Below, in pieces: positions 2,454-64,000 of a stretch of 64,000 nt of DNA. The notes under the pieces were generated by a model. It did not search any database, was not told the DNA's origin, and worked only from the letters and a program-made list of their open reading frames with translations. Made by a program: the position numbers and the translations under genes. The stretch is from Calothrix sp. PCC 7716 (GTDB taxonomy: Bacteria; Cyanobacteriota; Cyanobacteriia; Cyanobacteriales; Nostocaceae): assembly GCF_019977735.1 (NCBI RefSeq), contig NZ_AP025019.1:62001-126000 (forward strand), written 5' to 3'. Within the stretch, counting starts at the first letter, position 1. Every line of letters begins with the position of its first letter.

Positions 2454-3075
2454 AGATTCCCCCAATTATCGATGAAGATATCGGGGTAGCCTACACAAAG
2501 GTATCGAAACCAATTATTTGTGGAAAAAGCTACTGTTTGGACAAGTTTGATTTTCCAAACTTGTGTCGCATCTTCTACACGTTTACAGGTTTACATATAC
2601 TTCTTGGTCAACGAGTAGGTAATTAGCATAGAATGTAGACAAATTTATATATGGTCGCTTGGGTTGTTTCCCAGCGTGCTGAGGCGATTGTCAGTCGTCT
2701 CACGGTCTTTATTCTGAGCTTTTACCTACAGTATTTGTTAAGACCAAGCACTTTGGCGGGCTACCCAGCTTTTTTTTGGCAATTGCAGTAGAAATTTAGT
2801 CTGCAAACCAGTAGGAAATGTAGATAACAGGTACAATAACGTTCCGCCCTTGGGAAAGTCGGGTAGGAACACGACATCTTGACGCATTTTTTGTGATTTA
2901 ACCAACATAAACGACTTAACTAATGAATAAAGCATACTTTTGGGCACTGAAAAGCAAGCCCATCAAGATTGATCAGGAAGTCATCAATTGCTAAAAGCCT
3001 TTCTATATCTAGGTTTCAAAAAAACGATGTCAGGCGTTTGGGCAATATTGTCAGGTGTTTGGGCATGAGTTGTCA
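2454..3075. other. Intergenic stretch without a recognisable gene
   Basis: No reading frame here resembles a known protein. The stretch separates the ParB-like operon promoter side from IS5-type debris. It probably holds the promoter of the minus-strand operon, but no clear -35/-10 pair was identified. Confidence 0.4.
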
Positions 3076-3288
3076 TCATTGATAAAGCCTATGCAGCAGT
3101 GCTTTCAGCCCTATTTTTACAACTTTTTTTTTGATGACAAGTTTTTGTGAAAGTGATGACAGAAAATTGCTTTTCAACACTCTTTTACCGCCTTCGCGCT
3201 CACCCATGCTGGCTGCTGTAATTAATACCCGTAGCACTAAGCCCAAAGTCAGTAAATCACAAACTTTCGGAAGACTACGTAAAAACAA
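3076..3288 (-). pseudogene. IS5-family transposase fragment
   Basis: Seventy codons are open on the minus strand and include TLGLVLRVLITAASMGEREG, which matches the conserved middle of IS5-type DDE transposases (usual form: VDTxGLxLxVxVTAASVxDRDG). Neither the N-terminal nor the C-terminal catalytic parts are present, so this is a remnant. No terminal inverted repeats were found. The segment after it (VLKSNFLSSL...) diverges from the family, suggesting the fragment is joined to unrelated sequence. Confidence 0.6.
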
Positions 3289-29567: not shown

Positions 29568-32054
29568 ATGACTACCAGCATTAGTCTTCGAGATTATCAA
29601 ATAGACGTAATAAACCAAACTTATCAGCATTTTGATTCGGGTAAAGTATCAGTGCTATTATATGCCCCAACAGGTGCCGGAAAAACAGTTATCGCCTCAC
29701 AGGTAATCGCTGATTATGTCAAAAAAGGCAAGCGCGTAATGTTTATGGTGCATCGCGGTAAACTAGTACGCCAAACGCTCGATAAACTCAGCAAGCTTTT
29801 TGGCATTGAAGCAGGTGTTATTTGGAGTGATTACTACACTCCCGACTATAGTAAACCTGTCCAAATCGCTATGCTACAAACCATCCGTAATCGCGAACTG
29901 CCACCAGATATTGATTTGGTTATCCTCGATGAAGCTCACACTGGCGCCTACTTCAAAATATGGAGCCAAATCATGGATTATTACTCAGGAGGTATTTGGT
30001 TGTTCAGCAAAACACAATTTCTTGGCTTGTCAGCTACTCCTTGGCGTGCTAAATCAAATCAAGGCTACTGTCAATTTTTTCAAACCATTGTTAAGGCGCC
30101 CTACCCCAATCAATTAATCGAACAAGGCGATTTATGCCGCGCGCGTCAATTTGGCTACACCCACCTTATTGATGAATCTAAGCTCAAAGTCGTTGATGGT
30201 GAATATACAGAAAAATCAATGGCTGAAGTCTGTACTCCAGCATTAAATACAGAAATAGTTAAAATTTACTTGGAAAAAGACCCAGAAGTAAAGCGTAAAT
30301 TAATCGCGTTTTGTGCAACAGTCAAACAAGCCGAAGATTTAGCATATCAATTCAACTTAGTCGGTATTGAAGCCGAATGTATTGTTGGAGAAACACCAGA
30401 TTGTAAGCGCGAAGAAGCATATGAAAAATTCAGTAAAGGCACGATAAAATTAATATCTTCTTGTAATGTTTTAACGGAAGGTTTTGATGAACCAACAGTA
30501 ACTAGCTTACTTGTTTGTAGACCAGTTAAGTCACGCGCATTATGGGTACAAATGACAGGTCGTGGACTTAGAAGACATCAAGATAAAGAAGATTGTTGGT
30601 TCTTTGATTTCTGCGGAAACATCAAGCGACTCAAATTACCAACCGAAGCCCATGAATTATCACTATGCCCCAGCAACAAACCTCTAAAAGTAACTTCTAC
30701 TAAAATATGTCCTGAATGCGACAGCACTATCCCATTCTATGAAAGATATTGCCCACACTGCGGATACATGTTCGATTCTCTCGGCAAAAAAGCTGCTGCC
30801 GCATCGGTAAAACGCAAATTTGAAGAAATATTATCCTCCCAACAACAAAAACAAGTCAAGTATATCAAAACACTAGCTATCAATGCCTACAATAATCGTA
30901 AACCAATTGATATAGAAAAAGAATTTTACAAAAAATTCAATTATCTAATGCCCGAAGAATGGTACAATGGCTTAATATTTAACTCAAACGAAAAAACCTG
31001 GAATGCCGCACTACAGCACTATTGGCGTTACATGTTACAAATTAATAAAGATGTCAACTTAATCGAAACGCGCGCAAGAATTGAAAGATGTATTCAGCGT
31101 GAATTTAAATCAGGAATAATGAGCCAACTTACCAATTTAGATGTTGTATTCGACGAACAAAAAAAAGAAAAAGTCAAACGCTTGATAGCCTACCAGCCTT
31201 GGTGGCTAATTCTTGGGCAATCAAAACCAATAGACGCAGACTCAATTCAAATTGCTTACACTCAAACCAAAGGTGCCTACCAATCACGCTATGCACCCGA
31301 TGCCGATACCATTACAGCCTATGCCGAATTACTTGATATGGCCATAACCGAAGCCATCGAATACCACACAATAGACCCCGAAACAATCGAAAAACATGTT
31401 CATAATATCAAAACTAATATACGCAATGGTGCGTTTAAATTTGTATCACAATATATATTGAACCTGACACAATCGGCAAAAGAGCGCGTATGGAATCAGT
31501 TAACTAGGGTAGAAAAAGAACTTTACCGCACTTGGAAAGAAAAATTTGGCGAGATTCCCGTGCAGCAGCATACTGTTAAAACAAAAGCTGAGATTCAATC
31601 TACTGATATAGCGCCACCTGTCTTGAAAACTCAACCCAAGGAGGCGCCTATATCTAAATATGTAACAACAGCACCAATACTAAAAAATGCTGCTAATGCT
31701 CGGCAAGAGAATAGCAACCAACAAATTAATACTAACACACAACAGCAAATTAATATACCAAGTGTTGTCAATAATACAGTAGCAGCAAAAGAAAAAACTT
31801 CTTCAGTAATGGGTAGCTTACAGTTAACCTTATTTCCAGAAAGCGAAGCCGAAAAAGCGATTAATGATGTGTATAACCCACTTAGGTTATGTATTGATGA
31901 TTGGGTAAAAGCTAACAATCCAAAGCGAAGCAACTACAACGATGAAGGTCGAATCTTAAAAATCCACCCTAGTGATAAAAGACTATGCTATGTAGATTTA
32001 AAAAAATCTGGTAGGTGTTGGTGTCGGCTGGTTGACTTAAAGCGCGCAAATTGA
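29568..32054 (+). CDS. SF2 DEAD/DEAH-type helicase with zinc ribbon
   Basis: 828 residues. N-terminal helicase core: motif I APTGAGKTV (about residue 33), motif II LDEAH (about 119), motif III LSATP (about 158), motif VI QMTGRGLRRH (about 328). A four-Cys ribbon follows (CPECDSTIPFYERYCPHCG, about 382). The N-terminal half resembles RadD-type DNA helicases; the C-terminal 400 residues are plasmid-specific with a Gln/Asn-rich linker. Probably assists plasmid replication, repair or transfer. Terminator-like hairpin at 32068. Confidence 0.85.
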   Translation: MTTSISLRDYQIDVINQTYQHFDSGKVSVLLYAPTGAGKTVIASQVIADYVKKGKRVMFMVHRGKLVRQTLDKLSKLFGIEAGVIWSDYYTPDYSKPVQIAMLQTIRNRELPPDIDLVILDEAHTGAYFKIWSQIMDYYSGGIWLFSKTQFLGLSATPWRAKSNQGYCQFFQTIVKAPYPNQLIEQGDLCRARQFGYTHLIDESKLKVVDGEYTEKSMAEVCTPALNTEIVKIYLEKDPEVKRKLIAFCATVKQAEDLAYQFNLVGIEAECIVGETPDCKREEAYEKFSKGTIKLISSCNVLTEGFDEPTVTSLLVCRPVKSRALWVQMTGRGLRRHQDKEDCWFFDFCGNIKRLKLPTEAHELSLCPSNKPLKVTSTKICPECDSTIPFYERYCPHCGYMFDSLGKKAAAASVKRKFEEILSSQQQKQVKYIKTLAINAYNNRKPIDIEKEFYKKFNYLMPEEWYNGLIFNSNEKTWNAALQHYWRYMLQINKDVNLIETRARIERCIQREFKSGIMSQLTNLDVVFDEQKKEKVKRLIAYQPWWLILGQSKPIDADSIQIAYTQTKGAYQSRYAPDADTITAYAELLDMAITEAIEYHTIDPETIEKHVHNIKTNIRNGAFKFVSQYILNLTQSAKERVWNQLTRVEKELYRTWKEKFGEIPVQQHTVKTKAEIQSTDIAPPVLKTQPKEAPISKYVTTAPILKNAANARQENSNQQINTNTQQQINIPSVVNNTVAAKEKTSSVMGSLQLTLFPESEAEKAINDVYNPLRLCIDDWVKANNPKRSNYNDEGRILKIHPSDKRLCYVDLKKSGRCWCRLVDLKRAN

Positions 32055-41118: not shown

Positions 41119-41883
41119 ATGAAAAAAATAATTGCGGTAGTAAACCAGAGCGGCGGTGCTGGTAAAACGACTCTTAGCCAGAATATTGGATATCACCTAG
41201 GTCTAAAAAATAGAGTATTGCTTGTAGACATGGATCCACAGGCATCGCTAACAGCTTTTATGGGGCTAGATAAATTAAAGCTGGAGGTAGAACAAAATAT
41301 ATATGGTGCCATCACCGATCGGGTGCCTATAAAAGTCTGGAATGAGCCGATACATGGAGTATATTTCATTCCTACAAATCAGGAACTATCTTCAGCAGAA
41401 CTAGAAATAATGAGGGATATGGCAGTTGATAATAGAATGCGCTTGAAAATTGCTCTCGAAGAAATAGCCGACCAGTTTGACTACGCTATAATCGATTGTC
41501 CACCGTCGTTAAGTCTACTAAGCATCATGAGTTTAGTAGCTGCTACCCATGTTGTTATACCTTTGGAAACGCAGTACAAATGCTACAAAGGAACAGACGA
41601 TTTGTTTGGCACAATCGCTCGTGTAAAAAAAAGTGGGCACAAAAACTTAGAAATAGCTTGCATTGTACCAAACAAGTACGAAGGAAAGAACCTCCATGAT
41701 AAAGAAATTTTAGAAGAAGTGACAAACTTGGTGCAAGGTAAAATTCATGTGACTGAACCTATCCCTAAGTCAACTGCTTTTGCAAATGCCTCCAAAGAAC
41801 ATGTTCCGCTTGCATTATACAAAAAATCGCATCCAGGCGTTAAAATGCTTCAAGCAATATCTGATTATCTGGAAAAATTATGA
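41119..41883 (+). CDS. parA: ParA-type partition ATPase
   Basis: 254 residues. Deviant Walker A motif QSGGAGKTTLSQ (residue 10 on; the usual first Lys is Gln), switch I VDMDPQASLT, and Walker B-like YAIIDCPPS. It lacks an N-terminal DNA-binding domain, so it is the short form. AGGAG precedes the ATG. It moves plasmid copies together with ParB. The gene is coupled to parB by an ATGA overlap, and the 20-bp iterons end just upstream, where ParA/ParB or Rep would act. Confidence 0.93.
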   Translation: MKKIIAVVNQSGGAGKTTLSQNIGYHLGLKNRVLLVDMDPQASLTAFMGLDKLKLEVEQNIYGAITDRVPIKVWNEPIHGVYFIPTNQELSSAELEIMRDMAVDNRMRLKIALEEIADQFDYAIIDCPPSLSLLSIMSLVAATHVVIPLETQYKCYKGTDDLFGTIARVKKSGHKNLEIACIVPNKYEGKNLHDKEILEEVTNLVQGKIHVTEPIPKSTAFANASKEHVPLALYKKSHPGVKMLQAISDYLEKL

Positions 41884-42845
41884 AGCACGTACCCTTAAAA
41901 CGTCCGTTAGAAACAATGTCGAATTTGGACAGCTTATTCGGTGGAGATTTAGAAGAAGCGATACCTAGTTCTTCAATACCATTAACAAATATTGTACGTC
42001 CTGCATCCCAACCCCGTCGCTACTTTGATGAAGAAAAAATTGAATCGCTTGCTCAAAGCATTTCCGACATTGGGTTATTAGAGCCAATAGTAGTTAGAAA
42101 GCTTGACAATGGTAATTATGAATTAGTCGCAGGAGAACGGCGCCTGCGCGCTTGTCAAAAACTTCAGCTTACGGAAGTGCCTGCTAATATTATAGAGTGC
42201 GATGATACCAAGGCTAGGCAAATACGCTTAGTGGAGAACTTACAAAGGGAAGACCTTAATATATACGAAGAGACTGTAGGCATATTAGAATTACTTGTAG
42301 TGTTGCTCGAAAAAGAGCAAGATGAAGTGGTAAAGCTTCTCTATATAATGCACGAGGCAGATAAAGGAAAGACTTCCCAGAACGTTCTGGGAAGTTCAGA
42401 GAGCCAGATAATTCAAGACCTTTTTAATAAATTTGGCAAGATTACTTGGCAAAGTTTTTTGACAACTAGGCTACCAATGCTAAAGCTAAAAGAAGATATT
42501 AAAGAGGTTTTGTCAAGAGGAAAACTGGAATATACTAAAGCATTGGCAATATCCAAAATAAAAGATGATGCAATAAGAGGTGAGGTTTTACAGCAAGCAA
42601 TAAACGAAAAATTATCTTTGTCAAAAATTAAGGATTTGATTGAGCAAGCTAACGTTAGATTGGCGCCAGAATTAAAAACACCTACTTTTAAGCCGAAAGA
42701 AGTTGCTACTAGATTTAGTAAAGTAACCAAACTCCTCAAGGATACTGATATTTGGGATAGACCACAGGAAGCAAGCCAGTTAGTTAAATATTTAAGCCAA
42801 ATAGAAAAATTGTTGCTGCCGATTTCAGATGCTGAAAGCGTTTAA
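41880..42845 (+). CDS. parB: ParB partition protein
   Basis: 321 residues. Box I/II region: PRRYFDEEKIESLAQSISDI, GLLEPIVVRKL, then GERRLRACQ, and RLVENLQREDLNIYEE. The helix-turn-helix follows (TSQNVLGSSESQIIQDL is an unusual insert before it), and ILVKYLSQIEKL-type helices close the protein. Its ATG overlaps the parA stop. It binds the centromere and loads onto DNA. A hairpin-like AACGTTCTGGG palindrome lies within the coding insert near 42380. Confidence 0.9.
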   Translation: MKHVPLKRPLETMSNLDSLFGGDLEEAIPSSSIPLTNIVRPASQPRRYFDEEKIESLAQSISDIGLLEPIVVRKLDNGNYELVAGERRLRACQKLQLTEVPANIIECDDTKARQIRLVENLQREDLNIYEETVGILELLVVLLEKEQDEVVKLLYIMHEADKGKTSQNVLGSSESQIIQDLFNKFGKITWQSFLTTRLPMLKLKEDIKEVLSRGKLEYTKALAISKIKDDAIRGEVLQQAINEKLSLSKIKDLIEQANVRLAPELKTPTFKPKEVATRFSKVTKLLKDTDIWDRPQEASQLVKYLSQIEKLLLPISDAESV

Positions 42846-49668: not shown

Positions 49669-51372
49669 ATGCCCTACGCCATCGCGCGCACAAAGAAACT
49701 CAAGAAAAGCAATATCGCAGGTAGTGAATCACACTCAGCACGACTTAGAGTAACTCCCAATGCCGATAGTAGTAAGAAAAATATTAGATTAATTGGCGCC
49801 AATAATCCTGAAGAAAGGTTACAAGATTTAGTATTAGCCAAAATTGCTGAACATACACAAAAGCGTAAGATACGAACTGATGGTGTTTATTGTGTGGAGT
49901 TACTGCTCACCGCATCACCTACATACTTCCGACCCGATGACCCCACGCGCGCTGGATATTGGGATGAAGATAACCTCAATACCTGGACTGAAACTAATCT
50001 TCAATGGTTACAAGATACTTACCAAGACAAAATAGTACGAGCCGAACTCCACCTCGACGAAGCAACACCACACATACACGCTTACCTAGTCCCACTCGAT
50101 GACAAGGGACAACTGCGGTGTAACCATTACTTTGATGGGCGAGCCAAAATGCAAGCTTTTCAAGATAGTTACCATACCGCAATGTTGGGTTTAGGTTTAG
50201 ACCGTGGACTCAAGGGCAGCCGCGCGCAACACTTGGAAATTAAAGACTTTTACCGCATCGTAGAAGAGGGATTAGATTTAGATAGCAATAAACTTTCCCC
50301 CGAACAGTTACAAGCTAAAGCTGCTGACCGGGATAGAGCAGTCAAACGCAAATCAGAAATCGAACTAACCGCTCAACAATTAATGAAAGAAAACGATACG
50401 CTAAGAATAGAAAATACACAATTAAGACGCACACTCAATCAACTAAGAGATATTCCACTGTATCAGGTAGCATGGCATTTAGGTTTGATTAAAGGAAAAG
50501 ATAATAAGTGGAAGGGAGATAAGCATTCAATCAATATTGATGGTAGCAAGTGGTATGATTTCCACCCTTCACAGAATAAAGGTGGGGGTGGCGCCATCGA
50601 TTTAGTTATGCATGTCGGTGATTACAGTTTCAAGCAAGCAGTAGCATTTCTAAATGATAGGTTTGATGAGGAAAAAATGCTTGCTTCTGTTACTCACCAC
50701 GCGCGTGCGTCAGCACAAGATATCGCTAAGTCCGAGTCTGTGCTACCGTTTGAGCCAGTAATCGATAGTAAGAATTGGGATAAAGTAAAGAAATATCTCA
50801 CACAAGAACGCGGACTACACCCAAGATTAGTAGAAACCTTTCATGAACAAGGTTTAATTCATGCTGATAACAACCAAAATGCTGTATTTTCAATGCGTAA
50901 CTTAAACGGTGAACTAGAGGGTGCCTTCTTGCGTGGTACTGTTGGAGAAAACAATACTTTCATGGGCTACGCAAAAGGTACAAAGCGTGATAAATGTTGG
51001 TTTTATTTTCAATCAGGTAGTCAGTCTATCTCCGATGTGGAGCAAGCAGTACTGTGTAAATCTCCTATTGATGCACTATCAATTGCCCAACTTGAGGTTG
51101 AAGCAGGCGCCAAGGATAAGAAAGTCCCTACTATATATATGACAGCCGACAATGCCGAAAGCTTACCTATAGAGTTTTTACAATCAATACCAACTGTATT
51201 ATGTGCTTTTGGTAATGATAATGCTAGAGACTCCCTAGCTTCGACAACCCGCACGTTGTTACCTAATGCTCAACAAATCAAGCCAAGTGCAATTGATTGG
51301 AATTTGGAATTACTTGCAAAACAACGAAATTCCAAGCAGAAACAGCAATCAAAATCCCAAAACGAAAAATAA
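49669..51372 (+). CDS. mobV: MobV-type relaxase fused to primase-like domain
   Basis: 567 residues. N-terminal MobV relaxase: motif I MPYAIARTKKLKK...NIRLIGANNPEE and the metal-binding motif AELHLDEATPHIHAYLVPLD (about residue 125). From about residue 260 comes a primase-type region: YQVAWHLGLIKGKDNKW...YDFHPSQNKGGGGAIDLVMH (CHC2/DUF3991-like, without zinc Cys) and a Toprim-like part (VLCKSPIDALSIAQLE). It would nick oriT and may prime the transferred strand in the recipient. GCGCGC runs occur four times. Confidence 0.88.
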   Translation: MPYAIARTKKLKKSNIAGSESHSARLRVTPNADSSKKNIRLIGANNPEERLQDLVLAKIAEHTQKRKIRTDGVYCVELLLTASPTYFRPDDPTRAGYWDEDNLNTWTETNLQWLQDTYQDKIVRAELHLDEATPHIHAYLVPLDDKGQLRCNHYFDGRAKMQAFQDSYHTAMLGLGLDRGLKGSRAQHLEIKDFYRIVEEGLDLDSNKLSPEQLQAKAADRDRAVKRKSEIELTAQQLMKENDTLRIENTQLRRTLNQLRDIPLYQVAWHLGLIKGKDNKWKGDKHSINIDGSKWYDFHPSQNKGGGGAIDLVMHVGDYSFKQAVAFLNDRFDEEKMLASVTHHARASAQDIAKSESVLPFEPVIDSKNWDKVKKYLTQERGLHPRLVETFHEQGLIHADNNQNAVFSMRNLNGELEGAFLRGTVGENNTFMGYAKGTKRDKCWFYFQSGSQSISDVEQAVLCKSPIDALSIAQLEVEAGAKDKKVPTIYMTADNAESLPIEFLQSIPTVLCAFGNDNARDSLASTTRTLLPNAQQIKPSAIDWNLELLAKQRNSKQKQQSKSQNEK

Positions 51373-52832: not shown

Positions 52833-53453
52833 TCATGGGTTTCTGTTGAACATATCATCTGTGTCCAAGGAATTGGTGTCAAATTGGCTAAGTGCCTGAG
52901 TAGCGGCTTGATATTCATCAGGTTCCATGCCAAAGGCAAGAGCGGAAGATTCCTCAAAATTACGCAAATCAGTGATTTCTCGTTCATTCAGCGGACGCAA
53001 AGTATTAACATTTTGCTTGTCGAAACTATCCTTAGCATCTTTAGCGTGATTGATACCAAGTGGTCGATAGTATTCAACAAGCCGATTAAATTCTCGAACT
53101 GCTTCCATTTTTTCAGCACTAAGCGCCATCACTTCGTCTACACGGCGCCCGTCACCAGCAATCTTTTCAAGATAATCTTCACGCACAGAACCATCAAAGT
53201 TGAGTATTTCTTGTTCAAAAGAGGTAAATATAGCTTCATATGCAGTGTAGTCAACCCATTCTTCAGGCGCCTCTTCATCAAGTTTTCTCAATTTCTGATA
53301 TTCAGTTTGAAGTCTCAACCCTTCTTTCTCAATATCAGCTTCACTCCAACCATTACCTCTACACCGAGCTATATAGTTTTCAGTCAGATTACCATTTGAA
53401 TCAAGCTTATGTTTCATTTGATTCAACCACCTCAAAGTTTGTGAGTATTCCAT
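52833..53453 (-). CDS. Hypothetical helical protein, 206 residues
   Basis: Starts MEYSQTLRWLNQMKHKLDSN. Highly charged and helical; ends DTDDMFNRNP. It is divergent from the giant gene (start codons 25 bases apart), so the two may share a control region. The opposite strand has a long open frame but its product is not protein-like. No family recognised. Confidence 0.55.
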   Translation of the reverse strand: MEYSQTLRWLNQMKHKLDSNGNLTENYIARCRGNGWSEADIEKEGLRLQTEYQKLRKLDEEAPEEWVDYTAYEAIFTSFEQEILNFDGSVREDYLEKIAGDGRRVDEVMALSAEKMEAVREFNRLVEYYRPLGINHAKDAKDSFDKQNVNTLRPLNEREITDLRNFEESSALAFGMEPDEYQAATQALSQFDTNSLDTDDMFNRNP

Positions 53454-53477: not shown

Positions 53478-56400
53478 ATGTCTATCCAAGCAAAGCATTT
53501 TGATACCCGTCTCAACAAGTGGATTCATATTGACGGAAACCAAGACAATCAAGAATCTATACTACAAGAAAAAATATCAAACACACTACTTGAAAGGTTT
53601 TTACCAGGTAAGCAGTTTTCCTTTGGTCATATGGATGACCAAACCACCTTTGAACAACTTGAAAACCATCCTGATGGGCATAAACTGCTATTATCTTCCA
53701 AATCTCGACTGCTGTATGGCTCCGAAGATTGCTTAGAAGTAATAAACCAGCTATGCCCCGACAGTAAAGACAGAGGCGCCTACGGTTCAATATTTTTGGG
53801 TGGATGCCGCACTGCCATTGACACTGAGTTAAATGTGTTAATTGTCGATGACATCACTGGGGAAAATGGCGGGATAATAGAAAAAGACCAAGCATATAAA
53901 CTTACAGGTGACTGCTACGGACAAATATCCGATGAAGTTTATCGCCAATTAACTGGTCATCAAGACGGTGATAAGTACCGTGTTATTCAACACCGCTTTG
54001 GTTGGACACCTGAAGATGGTGACGACGATAAACATAGATTCGGCAAAGGGACATTCCGCCCCGCTAACCTTAATGAAAATACACTTGACTACACCAGCCC
54101 ATCAAACAAACCAAAAATTGATGTAGTTATACCTTTATCTTCGTTCAAAGGTACTGATAAGGACAACCCAAACGGCGCCAGCAAACCACAAATCAAACCT
54201 GGTCTATACAAGCAAAAGGTATGGATTGGCGAAAAATCTCAAAGTGAACTAGGTAAAACTGCTATTTCGCAAGTAGTTGCTTCATTCCCTAAAGGTATGA
54301 AGGACTTCACTGAAATTATTGAACTAGAAGCACAAAAACTGGCAGAAGCTCAAAAAGACCCTCGCAAACTCGCTCAACTATACTGCGAAAAATATGAAAA
54401 GCGCAAAGAGTTCCTTGAGGAAGAGGCGACCAATTTAGAAAACGAAATCACTACTGAATTTGACCAAGACAAACAAAATAATCTTGATAAATTACGCGAA
54501 CGTCTTAATGATGATTCATTTATTTACAAAATTATTAAAGCCGACCTCGCCGCCGATGCCCAACTACTTGAAACCGAGAAGGTAAAAAACGCACTTACAG
54601 AATTTGTACAAAACGAATGGCGTGATATCGCTATTGGCAAAAAACTCACCTTCGAGCGCGCGCTTGTAATTCCCTCCAAAGACCTCAAAAACGGCGAAAT
54701 CTGTATACCAAAATATGAAAATAACGAAGAAGTATTAAACTTTCGTTCCCCTTTTCTCAATTCAAACGGTATGTGCGTATCAACCAACAAACTCGTTGAT
54801 GATATGCTTGGTCCTGATGGTAATAAACTCGAAGGTATTATTGTAGTTTCAGACGAAACATCTGAAAAAATGTACAAACGTATTTCTTCAGAAATTGAAA
54901 AAATACTGCCAGATGCTAAATCACAAAACATTAAATTAGATGGTATAGAAAATTACCTGAATAATAAAGAATATGACAAAAAGGAGATTCCTGATAAAAT
55001 TCAGTTTACAGACAAACTCAACGAATATATAGCTACGCTAAACAAAGCCGGATATAACATTGATTTATTACCATACGAGTCTGAGCAAGAAAGGCAAGCG
55101 CGCGATTACGACGGTGACTGTATTGGCTTTGAAAAGGCTAGCAAATACCCAAACCTTGCACAAGAAGCTATTGAACGCAATACACCAGAAAACGCCTATT
55201 TACCAACAATTAAGGAAAAAAAGCAGTCTTTCTATAATGAAGATGGTACACAGCCTTCATTTGAAAGAATTGCCAAACACATGAGCGATGGTATTAGTGT
55301 AGGTGTAATTAATAACCACCTTACATCAATTGAAGCACTTGAATCAGAACAAGAAATTATTAAATTATATGGTAGTAGTGAAGAAAAAATACAATATGTT
55401 TCTGAAGTAGCAAAACACTATTACAAAACCTTAAAAAGAGAAAACCCTAAAAAAGAATATACTATTATTCCCGAAAAATACAAAGAGCCAATGCGTGAAT
55501 TTACAAAATTGGCATATAGTGCTACATCTAATAATTCACCAGAATTAGCGCTTCAAGCAATGGCGGTTAATAAAGAGATGTACCGCGAATTGATTGCCGA
55601 TGCTGCATATCAAAACCAAATTGCAGTTGACTTGTTTAAAAGCGCCAAATCACCTGATATGAAGGCAATTAGACAAAATTCACGTTTACTACATCGTGAA
55701 GTTAATTATATTAAAGACAAGAAAGGTAATAAAGTATACGACACTGAAACAATTAATCCAACTGGACAATCACCAGTAGAATTACTAATTGCCAAAACAA
55801 ACCAGTACTTCCGCTCATCACAGCTTGAATCACGCGAAATTTCACAATTTAAAGATTTATTCAAAGACGTTGAATTCACTAATAACCAACGTTTAAGGGC
55901 AACCTTAGCTAAAAAAGAATTTGATACTGTATTCACCGCTGCCTCAATGCTATCAAGGCGCCGTGAAACCGAGAAAGGTCCAAGCATCGATTTAACTTTA
56001 CCAAATGACATTAAACTCGATGTTACAAATCTACTTGATGCTAAACATCCAGATGTTTGGAAAGCAAAAACACTTAAAATCAAAGTACAGCCAATTGATG
56101 AAGATAAGGTTACTAGCGACAGTCCACACAAGTATGAGATACTAGCACAAATTAATGGCGCCGTTGATAATGAAGGAAAAGATAAATATTTGAAGCTAGG
56201 CAACATTTCTAAAGAACAAGAATATGGCTTAATTAAACAAACAGGTACTCAGTTTGGGCAAGTATATAATATTAAAAATTTTGATTTTCAACCAGCTTTA
56301 AGCGAAGGGCAAGTTAAATTAATGTTTGACAATGCTTATGAAATAGCCCAAACATTTTACCAATCAATACCCGAAGATGAAAAATTAAGTATGGCTGCTG

Positions 56401-59400
56401 CTACTTGGGCAGTATCCACAACTAAATTTGCTAAAGACAAAAGTCAAACTAGTAGTGAACTAGAAGAAAGTGAGACAGGAAATAGCGAAATAGTAGCCAA
56501 AAAAACTTCTACTTTTGTATTTGCGGCATTTGAACAAGAAGTAATATCGCGTGTAGAAAATTTACAATTCAGTCAAACTAAGCTTACTAATATTGACAAA
56601 AACAGTCCTATATTCCAGCAGGAAAAAGTTGAAGTTCGCTATAACATTGACACCAACGGCAAAGATATAATCGAAGTTAAAAATCAAAGCGGGGAATATG
56701 AATATTTTGGTAATTTAGAAGCAGAAACAGGCAGAATGCCGATTGGTACTACTGCTGAAGCTCAAATAAGCTATAAAGATATTTATAGTGCTAATATTAC
56801 AACGCAAATACCAGGGACAACACCAGTCACATTCAAAATTACAGAATTAATAAAGCACGATTTAGGTCAACAATATTTTGATGGGAAAGAACTTCAAGAA
56901 CTAGAAATAAGAAATATACATCGTCCAATAGATACTTATACAATTAATATAAAAGATGGTAATAAGTTTATTAAAGTTGGTAATATCGACGAAAGCTCTA
57001 TAAAAGAAGGTATTGAGCAAGGTTGGTTGCCAGAAAAAACTGGGGTTGCAGGAGCGCAATTAAAACTTAAAATTACTCAAATTGTTTCGAGTAATAATAG
57101 TTATGCTGTTGGTGAAACTCCTGAAGGCAATCTTTTAAGGGTTAACCTTCACAAAGATTTTAAAAATGCTAATTTAAATAATGCTGAATATAGCGACGTA
57201 TATATGAAAGCATATAGTACCAGCAATATATACGTAGCTACCATTAAAGGAGAAGCAATAGGATTAATTGGTGAACATAAAGAAGTAAACTTTCCTCAAA
57301 GAACACATAAGCAACCATCTTTAGTTCAACAGCTTATCAACAATAAAGTAATCGAAGCAAACACTACTACAACTACCATTCCTGTTAAAGTTGAAAGCAA
57401 AATAAGCGCTGCCAACGTATCACTAAATCAAGAATCAATAAAATATCCTGAAGAGTGGATTAAACGACTTCAATTACTTAAATATGCTGAGAAGCAACTA
57501 ACAGAACAAGAAAGCAAGGCAAACAATATAATAGCCCAAATCAACGCACGCGATACCTTAATATTTCAAGATAGTCAGCAAAAAAAAGAAGGTGTATTTG
57601 GCATAGCCGTTGATAAAAGCAATATTGAAAATACCAAAAAATATCTAGAATTGAATAATATAAAGTACGCTGAATTGCCTGCTTCTCAGACAAAGCTAGA
57701 AGACAGAAAAGGGATGTCAGTATTAATAATTGATGAATCTTCTGTCAGCACAGAAAAGATGAAGTCAATATTTCTCAAAGATGGCAGAACGATTAAAAAT
57801 AGTGATGTACCATCAAAACTACCCATACCTAAAGACCAACTTGTATACTTTACTAACCCAAAGGCTGAATATGGTGATAAAACAAAAAGTGCAGTTGGCT
57901 TTGTGGTACCAACCAAAGATGCTGACACAGTGCAATCATGGATGGAAAACTTTCGTGCTTCAGTTAGCCAACTAACTCTTGGGAATACTACTATAGTGAT
58001 GGCTACATCCGCATCTGTAAATAAACAATTAGAAAATATACTTTCTAAAGAACTTGGCAAGCCCTTAGATGTTAGCATTACAGATGGCTATGATAAATAT
58101 GAAACAGCGACCACTAAACTTAAGGAAGTTATAGCAGTTACAGATTATACAGCATCTCAAGCAATCACCAAGCATCATGAAAACGAATATTATACTGTAC
58201 TTAAGCAATATGCAAATCGTCCTAAAGCGCTAAAAGCTGAAGAAGAAGAAATACTGCCACTGGCGCCTGTCGCACCTAGCGTTAATGAATCCTTACCGCA
58301 AAATTATAAAAATGTATACGAGTTAACACAAGAAGATAGATTCTATTTGCCTGTGGGTAGTACAGGTATCGAAAACGCTACCCAATTAGATGATTCACCA
58401 ACACGCCCAAGCATTGCACTTAATTTTGATGAACACATGTGGCTTGATTATGGGAAATCTACAGTAATCGCAGTTGATTTTCGGGAAATAGAAAATGCGC
58501 GCGAGCTACTACACTTAAACGCCATTAGCTTTGATGAAGCTGTTGGCATGAGTTACATTGGAGGATATAGTACTGATGAATTAACAAGCTTTTTATCAAA
58601 CAAAGGGTATTATACCTTTATAATTAAAAATGAAGATGTTTCTCAGCAAGAATTAGAATATATTAAACAATCATTAAATGTACAAAACGAATTCAATTCA
58701 CAAAACGAAACATTAATAGGCGCCAATAAAGCTACAAATTTTCTTGAGCAGTTGCCGAATGCACCAGAAAATATTAACAATATACTCAATCAATACATTG
58801 AAGATAAAGACTTATTCTTAAGTCAATGGCACACTCATGTTCAAAATGAAGCCGAACTGTATGTTTCTCCTGAATATCCTCCAACACAAAACTTAGTTTA
58901 TTTTATTGGTAAAATCCAGTCCTTGTCAATGGAAGAAATTAATCAAGAAGCGAAACAATTAAATGTGCTTGAAACAGCTTGGTTAAAACTCGCCACCGAA
59001 ACTGATATTAACTGTCCTTACGTCAAAGAAGGTGAAGAATGGAATAGGTTTCTTAATTCAACACTTTTCGACAATTTTAATAAAATCAGTACACATATTG
59101 AAAAATACACTAATACACAAACTGCAACTCCTAATACCCAACCCCCAGAGCAAACTCAACAATCGAATATTTTAGATACCAAAGTTGGTATCATTGTTCA
59201 ACAAATTAATCCTAAAGCCGAAACAATCGGCAATGGCTTTAACCAATCTCTTGCAGAAAAATATCCTAACGTAGCTAAAAAATTTGAGGAAAGCAAAGAA
59301 ACCCAAAAGGGTGTAAACTTTGTTCGTATTAATGATGATTTGTACGTTGCACAAATCGCATCGCAAATTAGCAGCGACATTACATCTAAACAAACAGACT

Positions 59401-62400
59401 TTAACAAACTAACTGCTGGTTTAAAAGAAATTGCTGATTTCGCTGATAAGAATAATTTACCAGTATATATACCACAAGGTTTAGCTGTCGAAGGTAAAGG
59501 CAAAGAAAGACTATCAAGTTGGGACAATGTTAAAAGCATTATTCATGAAAATCTTCCGAGTGCTGAAATTTTATTACCCAATCAAGATGCCATTAATGAC
59601 ATAAAAGAAAGAAACAAATTAACAAATGCTCCACCAACAGAAAATCTTGTTAGTTTGATAGGTAAAGCTGAAGAATTATCACAGGAAAAATATGATACCG
59701 CAATTAATTATCTATCTCCAAACGAACTAAAATGGGTATTGGTAAATTCTGGCTTGGGTAGCGAAAGCTTACCTGACTTAAGTAACGAAAAAGAAAGAAA
59801 ATTAATTTATAAAATTTTTGAAACCGAATATATATATGATAGACTACTTCAATCGACCGCTTCTAGAATAAGCGATGACGTTCTTACACAAATTACAAAT
59901 CTTAATAAACAGCTTGACAACGCTACCACAGCAGAAGAAGAAAGAAAAGCTGATAATACAAAATCAATATTAGTTGATAAATATGGCGAAAAGCTGTATT
60001 CACTCTTGGAAGAAAAAGCAGAGCAAAAATCACAGTTAATAACACTTCCTTCTTCTCAAGAAGCCAATAAAAATACACCTATAGAGATAATGGGCACAAT
60101 ATCAACTACTAAAATTGAAGAAATTCGCCAGCATCTCGAAGCAAACTATATTCAATTACTAGAAACAGATGTATCAAATTACTCACCAGGTAGGCAAGTA
60201 GGATGGGTAGGCGCCAAGTGGGAACTTAACAACAAAACTTTTTCATCTGGAGTGCAAGACAAAAAATTAATGGAGCTTCTTAAGCAAGTTTACCCAGATG
60301 GCGACATTGCACTTGTTACATATTCACCAAATCCAGGTCAAGGCATTAACTATCATCGCGATGACTCTTATGCTGCAAACGAAGCACGCAGTATTAATAT
60401 AGGTAATTCAGAATGGGGGTATCAACCAGCTAAAAGTAATATGGAACAATCACGCGATGAAAAAGCTAATACCCCAGTCGATGAATTTAAATTAGCATCG
60501 GGTACTGTTACGAGATTTCATTCTAAAAATGCACACGCAGCACTCAACACCGAAGCTGGAAGATGGAGCATTAATATTTGGTCGATAAAGGATTTATCGC
60601 AAAGCAAAGAAATTCGTGAAAAATACAATAATTTTCTACAATCAAACCAACCAGCGCGCGCGGTAGTCACTTCCAATAAAGACTTGACTATCAAAACAGG
60701 TGAATGGGCGCCAGGTGGCACAATCCAAGTAGACCGTCAGTATCCATCGATAGCAGCAGCAGAATTAGCGCAAATTATTCGCATCGGCAACAATACTCAG
60801 CAAAATGCAAAATCTCCAAATATACCAGATTCACCCAAAATATCAGGTAAACCAGTGACAATGGCATGGGATTTAACCAATCCTGACAAAAACGCTGGTG
60901 CCACTACCACCATTGATGCAATGCGCGGGAAAGGACGCGTACATTCCACCAGAAGTGAAAACTACTACGAAAAATACGGCATCAAAGAAGGTGATATCGC
61001 ACTCGCTGAAGGTAAAGACGGTAAACAAGTCGCTTTCCGTGTAGGCAAGCAATACAAAATTACCAAAGAAATGATTGGTAATCCTGATTATCAGCGCGCG
61101 TGGGTAAATTGGGAAAAACATAATGTTAGCGAGCTGTTGACAAGGCAATCTAAAAAAATTGATAACAAGCAACCTCTGTATGGTTTATTTATGGAACCAC
61201 TAGGGGACTATACTAATGGCAAAATAGTACCATTCTCAAGTGTCGAAATAGGCTCTGCTGCTTCATCTGGTATAGGCGCAGTACTAAACAATGCTACAAG
61301 CCTTGCTAAAAATTCAGGGAACCTAACATCAGATTACGAAATATCAATAAATGGTAATCCAGAAGCACCTGCTGGTAAATACGGTAGAGAAACACACCAA
61401 CTCAAACCAGCAGGCGCCCCATACAAGTCAGCCGAACATGCCTATGAGCATCAAAAACAAACTGACCCTAATAAAGATACTTACAAATTAATGGTAGAAG
61501 TGCTACAAGCCAAGCTTGAGCAGCATCCACGAATTGCTTCCACCATTACCAAACTTGGAGGTATCGACTACCTTGAAAAAGCTAAAGTTACCAATCAAAA
61601 CGATAATCAATGGGAAGGAATTGGCAAGGAATCAAAATTTATACGCGCGCTCTCTGAAGCCTACACCAACGTAATTCAAAAAACGCAAAGTAGTGAGCTT
61701 CTTACAAAGTTGGGCGGGACGGAAGCCGACACCTCTTCGAGGTTCGCCACTTTGGCGGAAAGGAAACCGTTCCCGCCAAGTGGACTCACCGCCCACTTTG
61801 CGCTTCCTCCCAAAACTACCAACCCACTTGCTTCCCTCGCACCTCTTAACGAAAGAGTAGCAAAAAATATGCCGAAGGATATTGCTATGGCTGAAGTCGC
61901 TACTCAATTTATTGGTAAGTCTGCGGCGCCGTTAGAAACACCATCATCCACACGCAATTACACTGAAGCATGGAACAAACTTGGGCTTGCTAATACAGGT
62001 AAATATACCAAAAACGACACAATCATGGTCAGTGCCAATGGTCCTTGGCGTGGTGTCACAATGCTTCAAATAGAACAGATTTTTAAAAAACATTATGAAC
62101 CGCTTCTTAGTAAAGGAGTAGAGGCAAAGGCATCTTTTGTACTTGGAACTGCCGATGGTGGCGACCAACTAATCAAGAAATTCCTTCAAGAAAATGGATA
62201 CAAACTTACTGATAGTGGTAAAGGATACCTGGTTGCTAATGTAAATGAAAAGGTTAAAGACAGCAACACGACTGAACCACCTCAAGAAATACCAACCAAG
62301 AAAACCACTCCGCCACAAAATAATCAAACAAACAATATCGCACCAGGCATTGTCATCAACTCACGCTCCACAGAACTTGGCGCCGCACTAACAAGTACTA

Positions 62401-63410
62401 CCGTCAAATCAAAGGCGCTTGGTGCCATTGACAAAGACTATCCAGTATCGTTCAGAGATAATATAGAAGTATTGAAAAATAGCGTGAAGGTAGAGCCTTA
62501 TACAGAAGACAAACCCAAAGGCGCACCATTTGCATCGCTTGAGCAGGCATTCCAGGCATATAAAGAAAGCGTACCACTGGGTGAATCACGAGTAAACTTA
62601 CTAGCAGAAATTCAACAAGCACGCTTCGAGCAACACCCAGATTTATTACAGGCTGTAAAAGATAATGGCGGAGTAGAATGGTTGAAGCAGTGTGAGTACA
62701 AAGTGGGCAGTAAAAACGAATACTGGGAAGGAAAAGGAGAAGAGTCAAAATATATTCGTAGCCTTATTATTGGTTACGAAAAAGCTATTCAAAATACAAT
62801 CGCTTCAGAACAAAATCAAGCAACAAATAATGAACACACATCATCCACACCTCCTGCACCCAAAGAAAAAAATAAAGAAGAAGATAAAGTTACAATCAAA
62901 ACACCTAATGTATCAGTACCAACATTTGACACGACAGATGACACCATTGAACAAATGCGTGCTGGAACATTATTAATGTTAACTAAATGGCAAGAAGTTG
63001 CTGATAAACTAGGAAGAGATGAAAGATATGTAAAAAGAATTGGGGATATTATAGAATCTTACCAAAACCGTGAAAACCTTAATCTTGATAAAGCCTTCCC
63101 GCATATGAAAAAAGACATGAACGAATTAGAAACAATAAATGATATTACGATGAGAGTGCAGCATGTAGTAAGAGGTATAGGGGGATTGAATACTAACACT
63201 GTCAAAACAAAAAATGGATACCAATTCGCTATAGATTCAAATAGCAGAAGTTTACTTGCTAAAGATGAAAATAACAATACTATTTTATTAATTAAAGATG
63301 GTAAAGTTAAAACAAATGCAGTCAATGAAAACTTTATCAAAGATTTGAAATATATGAATTTTCAAATTGATAGCGCATTAACTAATGTAAAAACTCAATT
63401 AACGGTATAG
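53478..63410 (+). CDS. Giant polyvalent protein: RNA-polymerase-like core plus macro, AlkB-like, ASCH-like, NADAR and SLOG domains
   Basis: 3310 residues. Residues ~100-560 resemble a two-barrel (DPBB) RNA polymerase: FGKGTFRP with Lys190, FPKGMKD near 270, NFRSPF at 421, and DYDGD at 543-547, the metal-binding signature of RNAP beta-prime and QDE-1/YonO-type enzymes. Domains further on: a helical module at ~1801 repeated at ~2052; between them a macro-like domain (~1898-2036, ending SSWDNVKSII); an AlkB-like 2OG-Fe(II) oxygenase (~2200-2375: YHRDD with H2293 and D2295, H2353, R2362); an ASCH-like domain (~2462-2588); two NADAR-like domains (~2623-2733 and ~2961-3105: SAEHAYEHQK, SLEQAFQAYK); and a SLOG/YpsA-like domain (~2845-2911: SANGPWRGVT, LGTADGGDQLI). 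Such mixtures match the 'polyvalent proteins' of phages and conjugative elements, thought to be delivered with DNA. Domain calls are from motifs; the polymerase and macro calls need testing. Confidence 0.7.
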   Translation: MSIQAKHFDTRLNKWIHIDGNQDNQESILQEKISNTLLERFLPGKQFSFGHMDDQTTFEQLENHPDGHKLLLSSKSRLLYGSEDCLEVINQLCPDSKDRGAYGSIFLGGCRTAIDTELNVLIVDDITGENGGIIEKDQAYKLTGDCYGQISDEVYRQLTGHQDGDKYRVIQHRFGWTPEDGDDDKHRFGKGTFRPANLNENTLDYTSPSNKPKIDVVIPLSSFKGTDKDNPNGASKPQIKPGLYKQKVWIGEKSQSELGKTAISQVVASFPKGMKDFTEIIELEAQKLAEAQKDPRKLAQLYCEKYEKRKEFLEEEATNLENEITTEFDQDKQNNLDKLRERLNDDSFIYKIIKADLAADAQLLETEKVKNALTEFVQNEWRDIAIGKKLTFERALVIPSKDLKNGEICIPKYENNEEVLNFRSPFLNSNGMCVSTNKLVDDMLGPDGNKLEGIIVVSDETSEKMYKRISSEIEKILPDAKSQNIKLDGIENYLNNKEYDKKEIPDKIQFTDKLNEYIATLNKAGYNIDLLPYESEQERQARDYDGDCIGFEKASKYPNLAQEAIERNTPENAYLPTIKEKKQSFYNEDGTQPSFERIAKHMSDGISVGVINNHLTSIEALESEQEIIKLYGSSEEKIQYVSEVAKHYYKTLKRENPKKEYTIIPEKYKEPMREFTKLAYSATSNNSPELALQAMAVNKEMYRELIADAAYQNQIAVDLFKSAKSPDMKAIRQNSRLLHREVNYIKDKKGNKVYDTETINPTGQSPVELLIAKTNQYFRSSQLESREISQFKDLFKDVEFTNNQRLRATLAKKEFDTVFTAASMLSRRRETEKGPSIDLTLPNDIKLDVTNLLDAKHPDVWKAKTLKIKVQPIDEDKVTSDSPHKYEILAQINGAVDNEGKDKYLKLGNISKEQEYGLIKQTGTQFGQVYNIKNFDFQPALSEGQVKLMFDNAYEIAQTFYQSIPEDEKLSMAAATWAVSTTKFAKDKSQTSSELEESETGNSEIVAKKTSTFVFAAFEQEVISRVENLQFSQTKLTNIDKNSPIFQQEKVEVRYNIDTNGKDIIEVKNQSGEYEYFGNLEAETGRMPIGTTAEAQISYKDIYSANITTQIPGTTPVTFKITELIKHDLGQQYFDGKELQELEIRNIHRPIDTYTINIKDGNKFIKVGNIDESSIKEGIEQGWLPEKTGVAGAQLKLKITQIVSSNNSYAVGETPEGNLLRVNLHKDFKNANLNNAEYSDVYMKAYSTSNIYVATIKGEAIGLIGEHKEVNFPQRTHKQPSLVQQLINNKVIEANTTTTTIPVKVESKISAANVSLNQESIKYPEEWIKRLQLLKYAEKQLTEQESKANNIIAQINARDTLIFQDSQQKKEGVFGIAVDKSNIENTKKYLELNNIKYAELPASQTKLEDRKGMSVLIIDESSVSTEKMKSIFLKDGRTIKNSDVPSKLPIPKDQLVYFTNPKAEYGDKTKSAVGFVVPTKDADTVQSWMENFRASVSQLTLGNTTIVMATSASVNKQLENILSKELGKPLDVSITDGYDKYETATTKLKEVIAVTDYTASQAITKHHENEYYTVLKQYANRPKALKAEEEEILPLAPVAPSVNESLPQNYKNVYELTQEDRFYLPVGSTGIENATQLDDSPTRPSIALNFDEHMWLDYGKSTVIAVDFREIENARELLHLNAISFDEAVGMSYIGGYSTDELTSFLSNKGYYTFIIKNEDVSQQELEYIKQSLNVQNEFNSQNETLIGANKATNFLEQLPNAPENINNILNQYIEDKDLFLSQWHTHVQNEAELYVSPEYPPTQNLVYFIGKIQSLSMEEINQEAKQLNVLETAWLKLATETDINCPYVKEGEEWNRFLNSTLFDNFNKISTHIEKYTNTQTATPNTQPPEQTQQSNILDTKVGIIVQQINPKAETIGNGFNQSLAEKYPNVAKKFEESKETQKGVNFVRINDDLYVAQIASQISSDITSKQTDFNKLTAGLKEIADFADKNNLPVYIPQGLAVEGKGKERLSSWDNVKSIIHENLPSAEILLPNQDAINDIKERNKLTNAPPTENLVSLIGKAEELSQEKYDTAINYLSPNELKWVLVNSGLGSESLPDLSNEKERKLIYKIFETEYIYDRLLQSTASRISDDVLTQITNLNKQLDNATTAEEERKADNTKSILVDKYGEKLYSLLEEKAEQKSQLITLPSSQEANKNTPIEIMGTISTTKIEEIRQHLEANYIQLLETDVSNYSPGRQVGWVGAKWELNNKTFSSGVQDKKLMELLKQVYPDGDIALVTYSPNPGQGINYHRDDSYAANEARSINIGNSEWGYQPAKSNMEQSRDEKANTPVDEFKLASGTVTRFHSKNAHAALNTEAGRWSINIWSIKDLSQSKEIREKYNNFLQSNQPARAVVTSNKDLTIKTGEWAPGGTIQVDRQYPSIAAAELAQIIRIGNNTQQNAKSPNIPDSPKISGKPVTMAWDLTNPDKNAGATTTIDAMRGKGRVHSTRSENYYEKYGIKEGDIALAEGKDGKQVAFRVGKQYKITKEMIGNPDYQRAWVNWEKHNVSELLTRQSKKIDNKQPLYGLFMEPLGDYTNGKIVPFSSVEIGSAASSGIGAVLNNATSLAKNSGNLTSDYEISINGNPEAPAGKYGRETHQLKPAGAPYKSAEHAYEHQKQTDPNKDTYKLMVEVLQAKLEQHPRIASTITKLGGIDYLEKAKVTNQNDNQWEGIGKESKFIRALSEAYTNVIQKTQSSELLTKLGGTEADTSSRFATLAERKPFPPSGLTAHFALPPKTTNPLASLAPLNERVAKNMPKDIAMAEVATQFIGKSAAPLETPSSTRNYTEAWNKLGLANTGKYTKNDTIMVSANGPWRGVTMLQIEQIFKKHYEPLLSKGVEAKASFVLGTADGGDQLIKKFLQENGYKLTDSGKGYLVANVNEKVKDSNTTEPPQEIPTKKTTPPQNNQTNNIAPGIVINSRSTELGAALTSTTVKSKALGAIDKDYPVSFRDNIEVLKNSVKVEPYTEDKPKGAPFASLEQAFQAYKESVPLGESRVNLLAEIQQARFEQHPDLLQAVKDNGGVEWLKQCEYKVGSKNEYWEGKGEESKYIRSLIIGYEKAIQNTIASEQNQATNNEHTSSTPPAPKEKNKEEDKVTIKTPNVSVPTFDTTDDTIEQMRAGTLLMLTKWQEVADKLGRDERYVKRIGDIIESYQNRENLNLDKAFPHMKKDMNELETINDITMRVQHVVRGIGGLNTNTVKTKNGYQFAIDSNSRSLLAKDENNNTILLIKDGKVKTNAVNENFIKDLKYMNFQIDSALTNVKTQLTV
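61705..61800. repeat. 96-bp dispersed repeat inserted in frame in the giant gene
   Basis: CAAAGTTGGGCGG (61705-61717) pairs with CCGCCCACTTTG (61789-61800) with one bulge; inner arms CCACTTTGGCGG (61747-61758) and CCGCCAAGTGG (61773-61783) also pair. The segment is GC-rich in an AT-rich gene, is 96 bases (32 codons) and lies in a linker between the first NADAR-like and the SLOG-like domains. Confidence 0.65.
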
Positions 63411-63414
63411 AACT

Positions 63415-64000
63415 ATGTCAAATTTTATAGAAATCGTAGACAAAGTTAAAGAAATGACAGGCAGTAACCTTACGTATGCACAATTCGCTGCCGTTTTTAA
63501 AGACGCAATGCTAAATAGCACTCTTAGCAAAGAAAGACAAGAGCAGCTTAAAGAAGAAAGTAAATCATTAAGTAATGATAAAAAAGAAGATATTTTAAAA
63601 GGTATAGGTAACTATATTATAGCAAAAGAAAATGAACTCAATATACCTTACAATAATTCAAATAATCAAATCATACAAAGTAATGAAACTAGTATTAAAG
63701 ACGAATCTTCTATAACAAATATATCTACAAAAAATAATTCAAATGCTTTTGAGCAAAATCATAAACCTACAGCTATAGCCGACAACAAAACACCTTTAAT
63801 CGAAGAAGATAAGAAGATAGATTTACCATCACCCTCTGATAATGAGGTAAAGCAGTACGTAATTCCAGTAGTTGCAGATAAAATTGCTTCCTACGGCAAA
63901 AGCGATATCAATAAAGACAGTATCACTTATGAAAATGAAAACTTTACTGCTATGCTTCGTTTAGGAGACGAAGAACAGCGTATAACACTCGACAGAAAGA
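63415..64000 (+). CDS. Partial gene downstream of the giant gene
   Basis: ATG two bases after the giant gene's stop region; 195 codons are present and the frame runs off the right edge. Starts MSNFIEIVDKVKEMTGSNLT; helical, then a low-complexity Asn/Ser linker, then VKQYVIPVVADKIASYGKSD followed by a beta pattern (YENENFTAMLRLGDEEQRIT). Almost certainly co-transcribed with the giant gene; may be another part of the same system. Family not recognised. Confidence 0.65.
   Translation, partial: MSNFIEIVDKVKEMTGSNLTYAQFAAVFKDAMLNSTLSKERQEQLKEESKSLSNDKKEDILKGIGNYIIAKENELNIPYNNSNNQIIQSNETSIKDESSITNISTKNNSNAFEQNHKPTAIADNKTPLIEEDKKIDLPSPSDNEVKQYVIPVVADKIASYGKSDINKDSITYENENFTAMLRLGDEEQRITLDRK

Follow-up and report, generated by a model that had tools for sequence, protein, structure and literature searches.

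Two-barrel polymerases encoded by phages, killer plasmids and transposons are already in print (PMC7824862), and YonO of the Bacillus phage SPbeta is a single-chain DNA-dependent RNA polymerase in which a change of the aspartate triad to asparagine abolishes RNA extension (PMC5467207). Single-chain polymerases of the YonO type may be similar to the enzyme from which all cellular RNA polymerases descend, and Forrest et al. 2017, with reference to Ruprich-Robert and Thuriaux 2010, have mentioned YonO-like proteins in the main genomes of cyanobacteria (PMC5467207). Polymerases also occur within giant proteins: in phage P23-45, an RNA polymerase homologous to the cellular enzymes is fused to the tail tape, forming the N-terminal part of a 5,002-residue protein (PMC10770324), and the polyvalent proteins, which are giant multidomain proteins of mobile elements, include some with an RNA polymerase of the N4 virion type (PMC5512222). 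Here we report on a 64,000-nucleotide stretch of Calothrix sp. PCC 7716 (contig NZ_AP025019.1, positions 62,001 to 126,000; hereafter the window), in which a single plasmid gene encodes a 3310-residue protein whose N-terminal core is almost certainly a homologue of the two-barrel polymerases, as judged from its sequence.

An earlier note on this DNA had proposed a double-psi beta-barrel (DPBB) polymerase core from four motifs, FGKGTFRP (residues 188-195), FPKGMKD (270-276), NFRSPF (421-426) and DYDGD (543-547), and all four lie in the 3310-residue open reading frame (ORF) at these positions and in this order. To follow them in relatives we used a scan of genome contigs, which yielded 221 stretches that code for a relative; 80 loci from these were retained for locus-based counts. 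Across 113 aligned rows, the window protein included, Q171, R173, K190, K224, P425, D543, D545, G546, D547 and G609 are invariant, so that the three aspartates, on whose presence in homologues the earlier note had staked its proposal, are kept throughout a sample that is partly motif-selected: the frames of the 80 loci were chosen by the pattern D[FYC]DGD, and the pattern of the underlying contig scan also held D[FY]D. The other 32 rows, which belong to three groups, are longest frames taken without this filter, yet picked after the motifs had been displayed, and the triad is kept in every one of them. R423 is found in 102 rows, the 11 exceptions all coming from the shortest and most distant group, which has 12 rows, and the window protein has both R423 and P425. 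Among the longest frames of at least 600 amino acids (aa) from less selected loci, some of them overlapping, 81 of 83 contain DxDGD; the two exceptions are a fragment (L133) and L176, a short relative without the first barrel region, in which DTDGG replaces the motif and which is probably a decayed copy. FPKGMKD did not survive this comparison as a conserved basic motif or as a second catalytic lysine, since K272 varies, relatives having K, Q, N, E or S there; the conserved lysine that accompanies K190 is instead K224. These findings confirm that the conservation of the motifs is beyond chance.

The core is also under purifying selection, with a dN/dS of 0.068 over residues 1-870 (against L039, which is 87% identical there), while nine other parts of the protein range from 0.041 to 0.207. 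This bears on the possibility that the core is a catalytically dead polymerase fold which serves as a scaffold for changeable modules, as the giant modular layout might suggest; the low dN/dS, together with catalytic positions that are kept in 113 of 113 rows of the selection-biased sample, makes this explanation quite improbable.

We compared the core with YonO at the level of profiles, using four hand-built groups, C1 (the window type, 17 rows), C2 (9 rows), C3 (8 rows) and C4 (8 rows), of which C1 is linked to C3 (E 7e-35) and to C4 (E 9e-23). The 42 pooled cyanobacterial rows matched five YonO proteins with a probability of 96.7, an E value of 4.1e-10 and a score of 94.1 over 447 columns spanning both barrels, whereas 60 controls (one reversed, 59 shuffled) scored at most 26.6. 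A second set of five phage proteins, two of them annotated as RNA-dependent RNA polymerase, gave a score of 71.3 (60 controls, at most 24.4), a comparison that is not independent because these proteins were chosen through the weak matches of L141; for scale, a comparison of the YonO set with this second set gives E 1e-5. YonO has the corresponding K, R, P, Asp triad and G opposite K224, R423, P425, the Asp triad and G609 in the pooled alignment, and K224 is aligned to the lysine of the YonO motif SQFK in both the pooled and the A1 comparisons. The two proteins thus share a single chain with the SxFK lysine, RSP, the Asp triad and then an IG/VG stretch in the same order. A smaller, earlier comparison of alignment A4 with A3 gave a probability of 90 and E 1.6e-6 over RSP, DxDGD and the next stretch, and A1 against A3 gave a probability of 31 and E 5e-4 over the first barrel region. 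By homology to YonO, both barrel regions lie on one chain, in contrast to the separate subunits of the beta/beta-prime RNA polymerase; a sandwich-barrel-hybrid insert in the first barrel is a feature of the multisubunit RNA polymerases (PMC7824862).

Several results weigh against reading the core as a polymerase of this type. The subgroups taken singly reached probabilities against YonO of only 0.4 (C1, that of the window), 84 (C2), 23 (C3) and 1.6 (C4), and the link to YonO therefore depends on pooling the groups, the window's own subgroup failing. The K190-G pair, which is aligned to the KG of YonO in the A1 comparison, is off in the pooled alignment. In a profile search of the PDB, A1 matched no chain and A4 gave two chance-like matches, and the Pfam RdRP family was matched at E <= 1 by just 2 of the 11 A4 members, the window protein not being among these. 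The profile phrog_4291 found none of the five copies in the organism's own genome. Finally, the AlphaFold model of residues 1-1190 (72 rows), by which the earlier note had wished to see two double-psi barrels, is of low confidence (mean pLDDT 57.9, pTM 0.30, mostly <50 in the barrel regions) and resolves neither barrel; Foldseek with this model returned nothing at E <= 0.001. As AlphaFold left these regions unfolded, we infer the two barrels. Scans of the window protein with Pfam and NCBIfam gave no family above its cut-off; a match to TPM_phosphatase (0.03 to 0.09) was under the cut-off and was dropped.

The family searches also raise the question of the template. One relative, L141, exceeds the Pfam cut-off for RdRP (PF05183), the family of the eukaryotic RNA-dependent RNA polymerases (RDRs) of gene silencing, at 25.3 bits versus 23.8 and E 7.6e-6, and it matches phrog_4291 'RNA-dependent RNA polymerase' at E 3.2e-6, whereas L146 remains below the RdRP cut-off (20.9 bits) and the window protein has no match. 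RdRP is the sole curated Pfam family that any relative passes. The order of motifs in the RDRs, QxR, KG, SxxK, RxP and DxDGD, is furthermore resembled by that of the core. The protein could thus copy RNA as eukaryotic RDRs do, for instance making double-stranded RNA from plasmid or host transcripts, but the characterized homologue, YonO, is DNA-dependent (PMC5467207), and we consider RNA copying unlikely. A two-barrel DNA polymerase of the archaeal kind is far less plausible still: the Archaea-specific DNA polymerases do belong to the double-barrel superfamily (PMC7824862), but the homology that was detected, in comparisons that did not include the archaeal enzyme, points to YonO and the RdRP family.

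The proposed DPBB core is thus upheld in its homology to single-chain two-barrel RNA polymerases, in the Asp triad and RxP, and for one lysine motif out of two; it fails in the lysine of FPKGMKD. The core is probably an active RNA polymerase, and DNA is the somewhat better guess for its template. Overall, we favor a YonO/RDR-type RNA polymerase with two barrels in a single chain, which would use plasmid DNA for RNA synthesis, either in transcription or in making primers (probability about 0.75). In such an enzyme, the first barrel would contribute K190 and K224, and the second the triad D543/D545/D547, which would bind the catalytic magnesium, with the bridge-helix-like stretch next to it. The changeable modules in the middle of the protein might have that nucleic acid, or modified nucleotides, as their substrate.

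We next consider where such proteins are found. The window lies on a contig of 384,612 bases in a genome of 12.4 Mb, and the closest named plasmid record is Calothrix sp. NIES-4105 plasmid1 (87% over residues 1-874, tblastn), which is typed as mobilizable, MOBV. With the same query, 80 of 72,556 plasmid records matched, and the 40 among the matches listed were all from cyanobacteria; 38 of the 80 are typed as conjugative, 14 as mobilizable and 28 as non-mobilizable. Residues 1-874 also matched 37 of 100 related genomes, and profile A1 matched 37 of 386 genomes sampled across the phylum. The organism's own genome has five copies, of which the second, 3363 aa long and 55% identical, lies on the largest contig, and the other three are 1271 to 1486 aa long (29-38% identity in matched pieces). 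The shortest relatives with a full-looking core have open frames of about 880-900 aa. One copy elsewhere (G020:C2:32713-35141; L031, L134) is interrupted by many stop codons and is a decaying pseudogene.

Among viruses, tblastn of the window core, and likewise of L004 and L146, found no match in 50,697 phage records, and five scans of viral contigs (with alignments A1, A5, A6 and A7, and with L146 as a single protein) yielded no relative that could be confirmed. L141 gave weak tblastn matches in 101 phage records at E <= 1, the best among the matches listed having E 2e-4. In the PHROGs profiles, the best match of the window core was 0.5, while L004 (1.9e-9) and L146 (1.5e-67) both matched phrog_34895, and viral relatives of the short form thus exist, given the strength of the L146 match.

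The location on a mobilizable plasmid claimed for the gene is borne out by the Mob_Pre relaxase and the ParA and ParB genes in the window and by the typing of the nearest named plasmid. Relaxases recur near the relatives: of the 62 loci with at least 5.5 kb of upstream sequence, 35 have a match to either of two queries no more than 6 kb upstream (37 of 80 when all loci are counted). In the organism's own genome, a relaxase match lies less than 5 kb from three of the five copies (at 2.1, 1.6 and 4.6 kb), whereas about 1.3% of positions would be this near a relaxase by chance, since PF01076 and PF03432 together give 16 matches in 12.4 Mb. The case for such a linkage is reduced by the 27 of 62 loci in which the two queries found no relaxase, by the two own copies without a relaxase of the two families searched within 10 kb, and by the relatives not being independent, which makes the count overstate the evidence. 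Because relaxases are close by, a part in plasmid transfer or establishment is suggested, although we hold it only tentatively. One form that it might take is a conjugation primase, which would prime the transferred single strand with short RNAs once it is in the recipient; relaxases of different families nearby would fit this, but no known primase family was matched in the family scans and YonO is reported to be highly processive (PMC5467207), so that we regard a primase as doubtful. Similarly speculative, and in our view improbable, is a scheme in which the polymerase enters with the incoming strand, or is first made from it, and begins to transcribe or prime the plasmid in the recipient independently of the host polymerase, while its modules clear ADP-ribose and other marks that host defenses place on nucleic acid; if true, it would be the conjugation counterpart of the phage virion RNA polymerases.

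Beyond the core, the giant protein is modular. Its constant part comprises residues 1-1440, with residue 50 covered by 79 of the 80 relatives and residue 1400 by 67, and its tail recurs, with residue 3200 covered by 59. Because only 2 to 36 relatives extend over the positions that were sampled from 1450 to 3100, the middle appears to be changeable cargo between the constant core and the recurring tail; a number of members about 1600 aa long, L062 for instance, match the core and tail alone. Uniting several domains in a single chain encoded on a mobile element, and with a variable middle, matching plasmid records and a relaxase, the protein has the makeup by which polyvalent proteins are recognized.

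The earlier note had further claimed fused NAD or nucleotide domains, which holds for a macrodomain-like module, by a profile built from rows of the relatives and the window; the other modules lack clear profile support. Against the PDB, this profile (A8) matched 5e3b, 'Macrodomain protein', at E 9.7e-6, as well as 2fg1 (E 1.3e-9) and 2afc (E 1.6e-9), both titled merely as conserved hypothetical proteins; the Pfam Macro cut-off was not reached, L065 giving 0.039 (14.3 bits versus 22) and L071 and the window stretch no match. In the oxygenase-like module, H104, D106, H164 and R173 (module numbering) are invariant in 14 rows. PF03171 matched this module in L056 at 0.031, while the window's copy matched no oxygenase family and there was no PDB profile match; its profile scored 24.0 against an AlkB-type set, the best shuffle reaching 23.5. 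Profile A11, of the NADAR-like modules, scored 23.4 (E 0.0087) against 20 NADAR proteins, with 18.4 for the best of 40 shuffles; Pfam NADAR gave 0.3 in L065 and no match in L057, and A11 had no PDB profile match below 0.2. One AlkB-type row of <100 aa was removed from the NADAR and AlkB comparisons, in whose initial version, with some rows in wrong frames, one shuffled control scored 136, which did not recur on repeat. The AlphaFold model of residues 2178-3310 (38 rows; mean pLDDT 62.0, pTM 0.33) gave nothing in Foldseek at E <= 0.001; the oxygenases YcfD and PHD2 ranked near the top with E values from 0.05 to about 1, which is no proof. PADLOC matches to residues 1441-2174 (DinG-type 0.007, DpdE 0.037) were weak and were dropped. 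In L048, L051, L055 and L056, another module with GGQTGADMGGLIGA (GGQTGADMGGLIGAK in L055) occupies the place of the window module at residues 2830-2940. The name SLOG, which might be given to the latter, found no support here and is not used. NADARs and the macrodomain of DarG strip ADP-ribose from DNA (PMC11125620), and for this reason it is possible that the cargo modules undo nucleic-acid modification.

Features of the giant gene and its neighborhood (window coordinates).
Feature	Position	Strand	Basis or remark
Giant gene, 3310 aa, ATG start	53478..63410	+	ORF reading; residue 50 covered by 79/80 relatives
Polymerase core, residues 1-870	53478..56087	+	Conserved across four aligned groups; homology to YonO by pooled profile
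First barrel region, residues 165-275: QxR, K190-G (54045), SSFK224-G (54147)	53970..54302	+	Barrel fold putative
R423-S-P425, second barrel region	54744..54752	+	Aligned to YonO RSP
DYDGD metal-binding motif (putative), residues 543-547	55104..55118	+	113/113 rows; aligned to YonO Asp triad
Bridge-helix-like stretch, residues 595-625, with G609	55260..55352	+	Aligned to YonO IGxxSN stretch; name is putative
QxxxDxxK motif, residues 714-721	55617..55640	+	Q 112/113, D 112/113, K 113/113 rows
Conserved many-stranded extension, residues 871-1440	56088..57797	+	dN/dS 0.207; strands in low-confidence model up to residue 1190
Macrodomain-like module, residues 1895-2035	59160..59582	+	Profile A8 (5 rows) vs PDB
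2-oxoglutarate/Fe(II) oxygenase-like module (weak), residues 2190-2420	60045..60737	+	Invariant H, D, H, R set
Conserved module, residues 2450-2590	60825..61247	+	Segments of 36 relatives; no PDB profile match
NADAR-like module A (weak), residues 2580-2745	61215..61712	+	Profile A11
Alpha/beta-looking module, residues 2830-2940	61965..62297	+	25 segments; mostly confident in model; no notable family match
NADAR-like module B (weak), residues 2950-3110	62325..62807	+	33% identical to module A; same profile
Conserved C-terminal tail, residues 3150-3310	62925..63407	+	55 segments
Mob_Pre-type relaxase, 2.1 kb upstream of giant gene	49669..51372	+	PF01076 E 3.5e-36
ParA and ParB partition genes	41119..42845	+	PF13614 3e-42, PF02195 1.7e-27
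Divergent neighbor, 206 aa, 24-base gap to giant gene	52833..53453	-	Matched upstream in 54/80 relatives
Companion gene, starts four bases past giant gene, exceeds window end	63415..63999	+	Homologous genes follow the giant gene in a number of relatives

The companion gene corresponds, by eye, to a 280-aa gene behind the NIES-4105 copy, whose product matches 22 of 40 next-ORF candidates (60 loci had at least 250 bases downstream). Elsewhere in the window (29568-32054, + strand) lies a gene for an 828-aa ResIII/DEAD helicase with a zinc-ribbon-like stretch.

The earlier note regarded the arrangement as a new architecture, which we confine to the giant modular form, because YonO-like cyanobacterial proteins had already been mentioned by Forrest et al. 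2017. Those are main-genome proteins, for which the available text of that paper mentions no fusion to a modular giant (PMC5467207), and, likened by description, they are perhaps the same as relatives of about 890 aa such as L144 and L146. YonO itself is a phage-borne protein of 839 aa, whereas the window protein continues past its core with the conserved extension up to residue 1440, the variable modules and the tail, and its kind is found on plasmids and chromosomes. The P23-45 fusion, again likened by description, is a phage tail protein (PMC10770324), and, compared with the polyvalent proteins that carry an N4-type polymerase (PMC5512222, as far as its available text describes them), the window protein would have a two-barrel polymerase and is plasmid-borne. 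The literature searched, which stopped short of the main source papers, showed no two-barrel polymerase within a giant modular protein of a plasmid.

These findings suggest that the plasmid may carry its own enzyme for transcription or priming. On cyanobacterial plasmids, many of them typed as conjugative or mobilizable, the proteins make up a set that is large, diverse and conserved, with frames that range from about 880 to >3300 residues and that often lie near relaxase genes. This set makes the idea of a plasmid-borne transcription or priming enzyme directly testable, and its compact members are suited to structural work.
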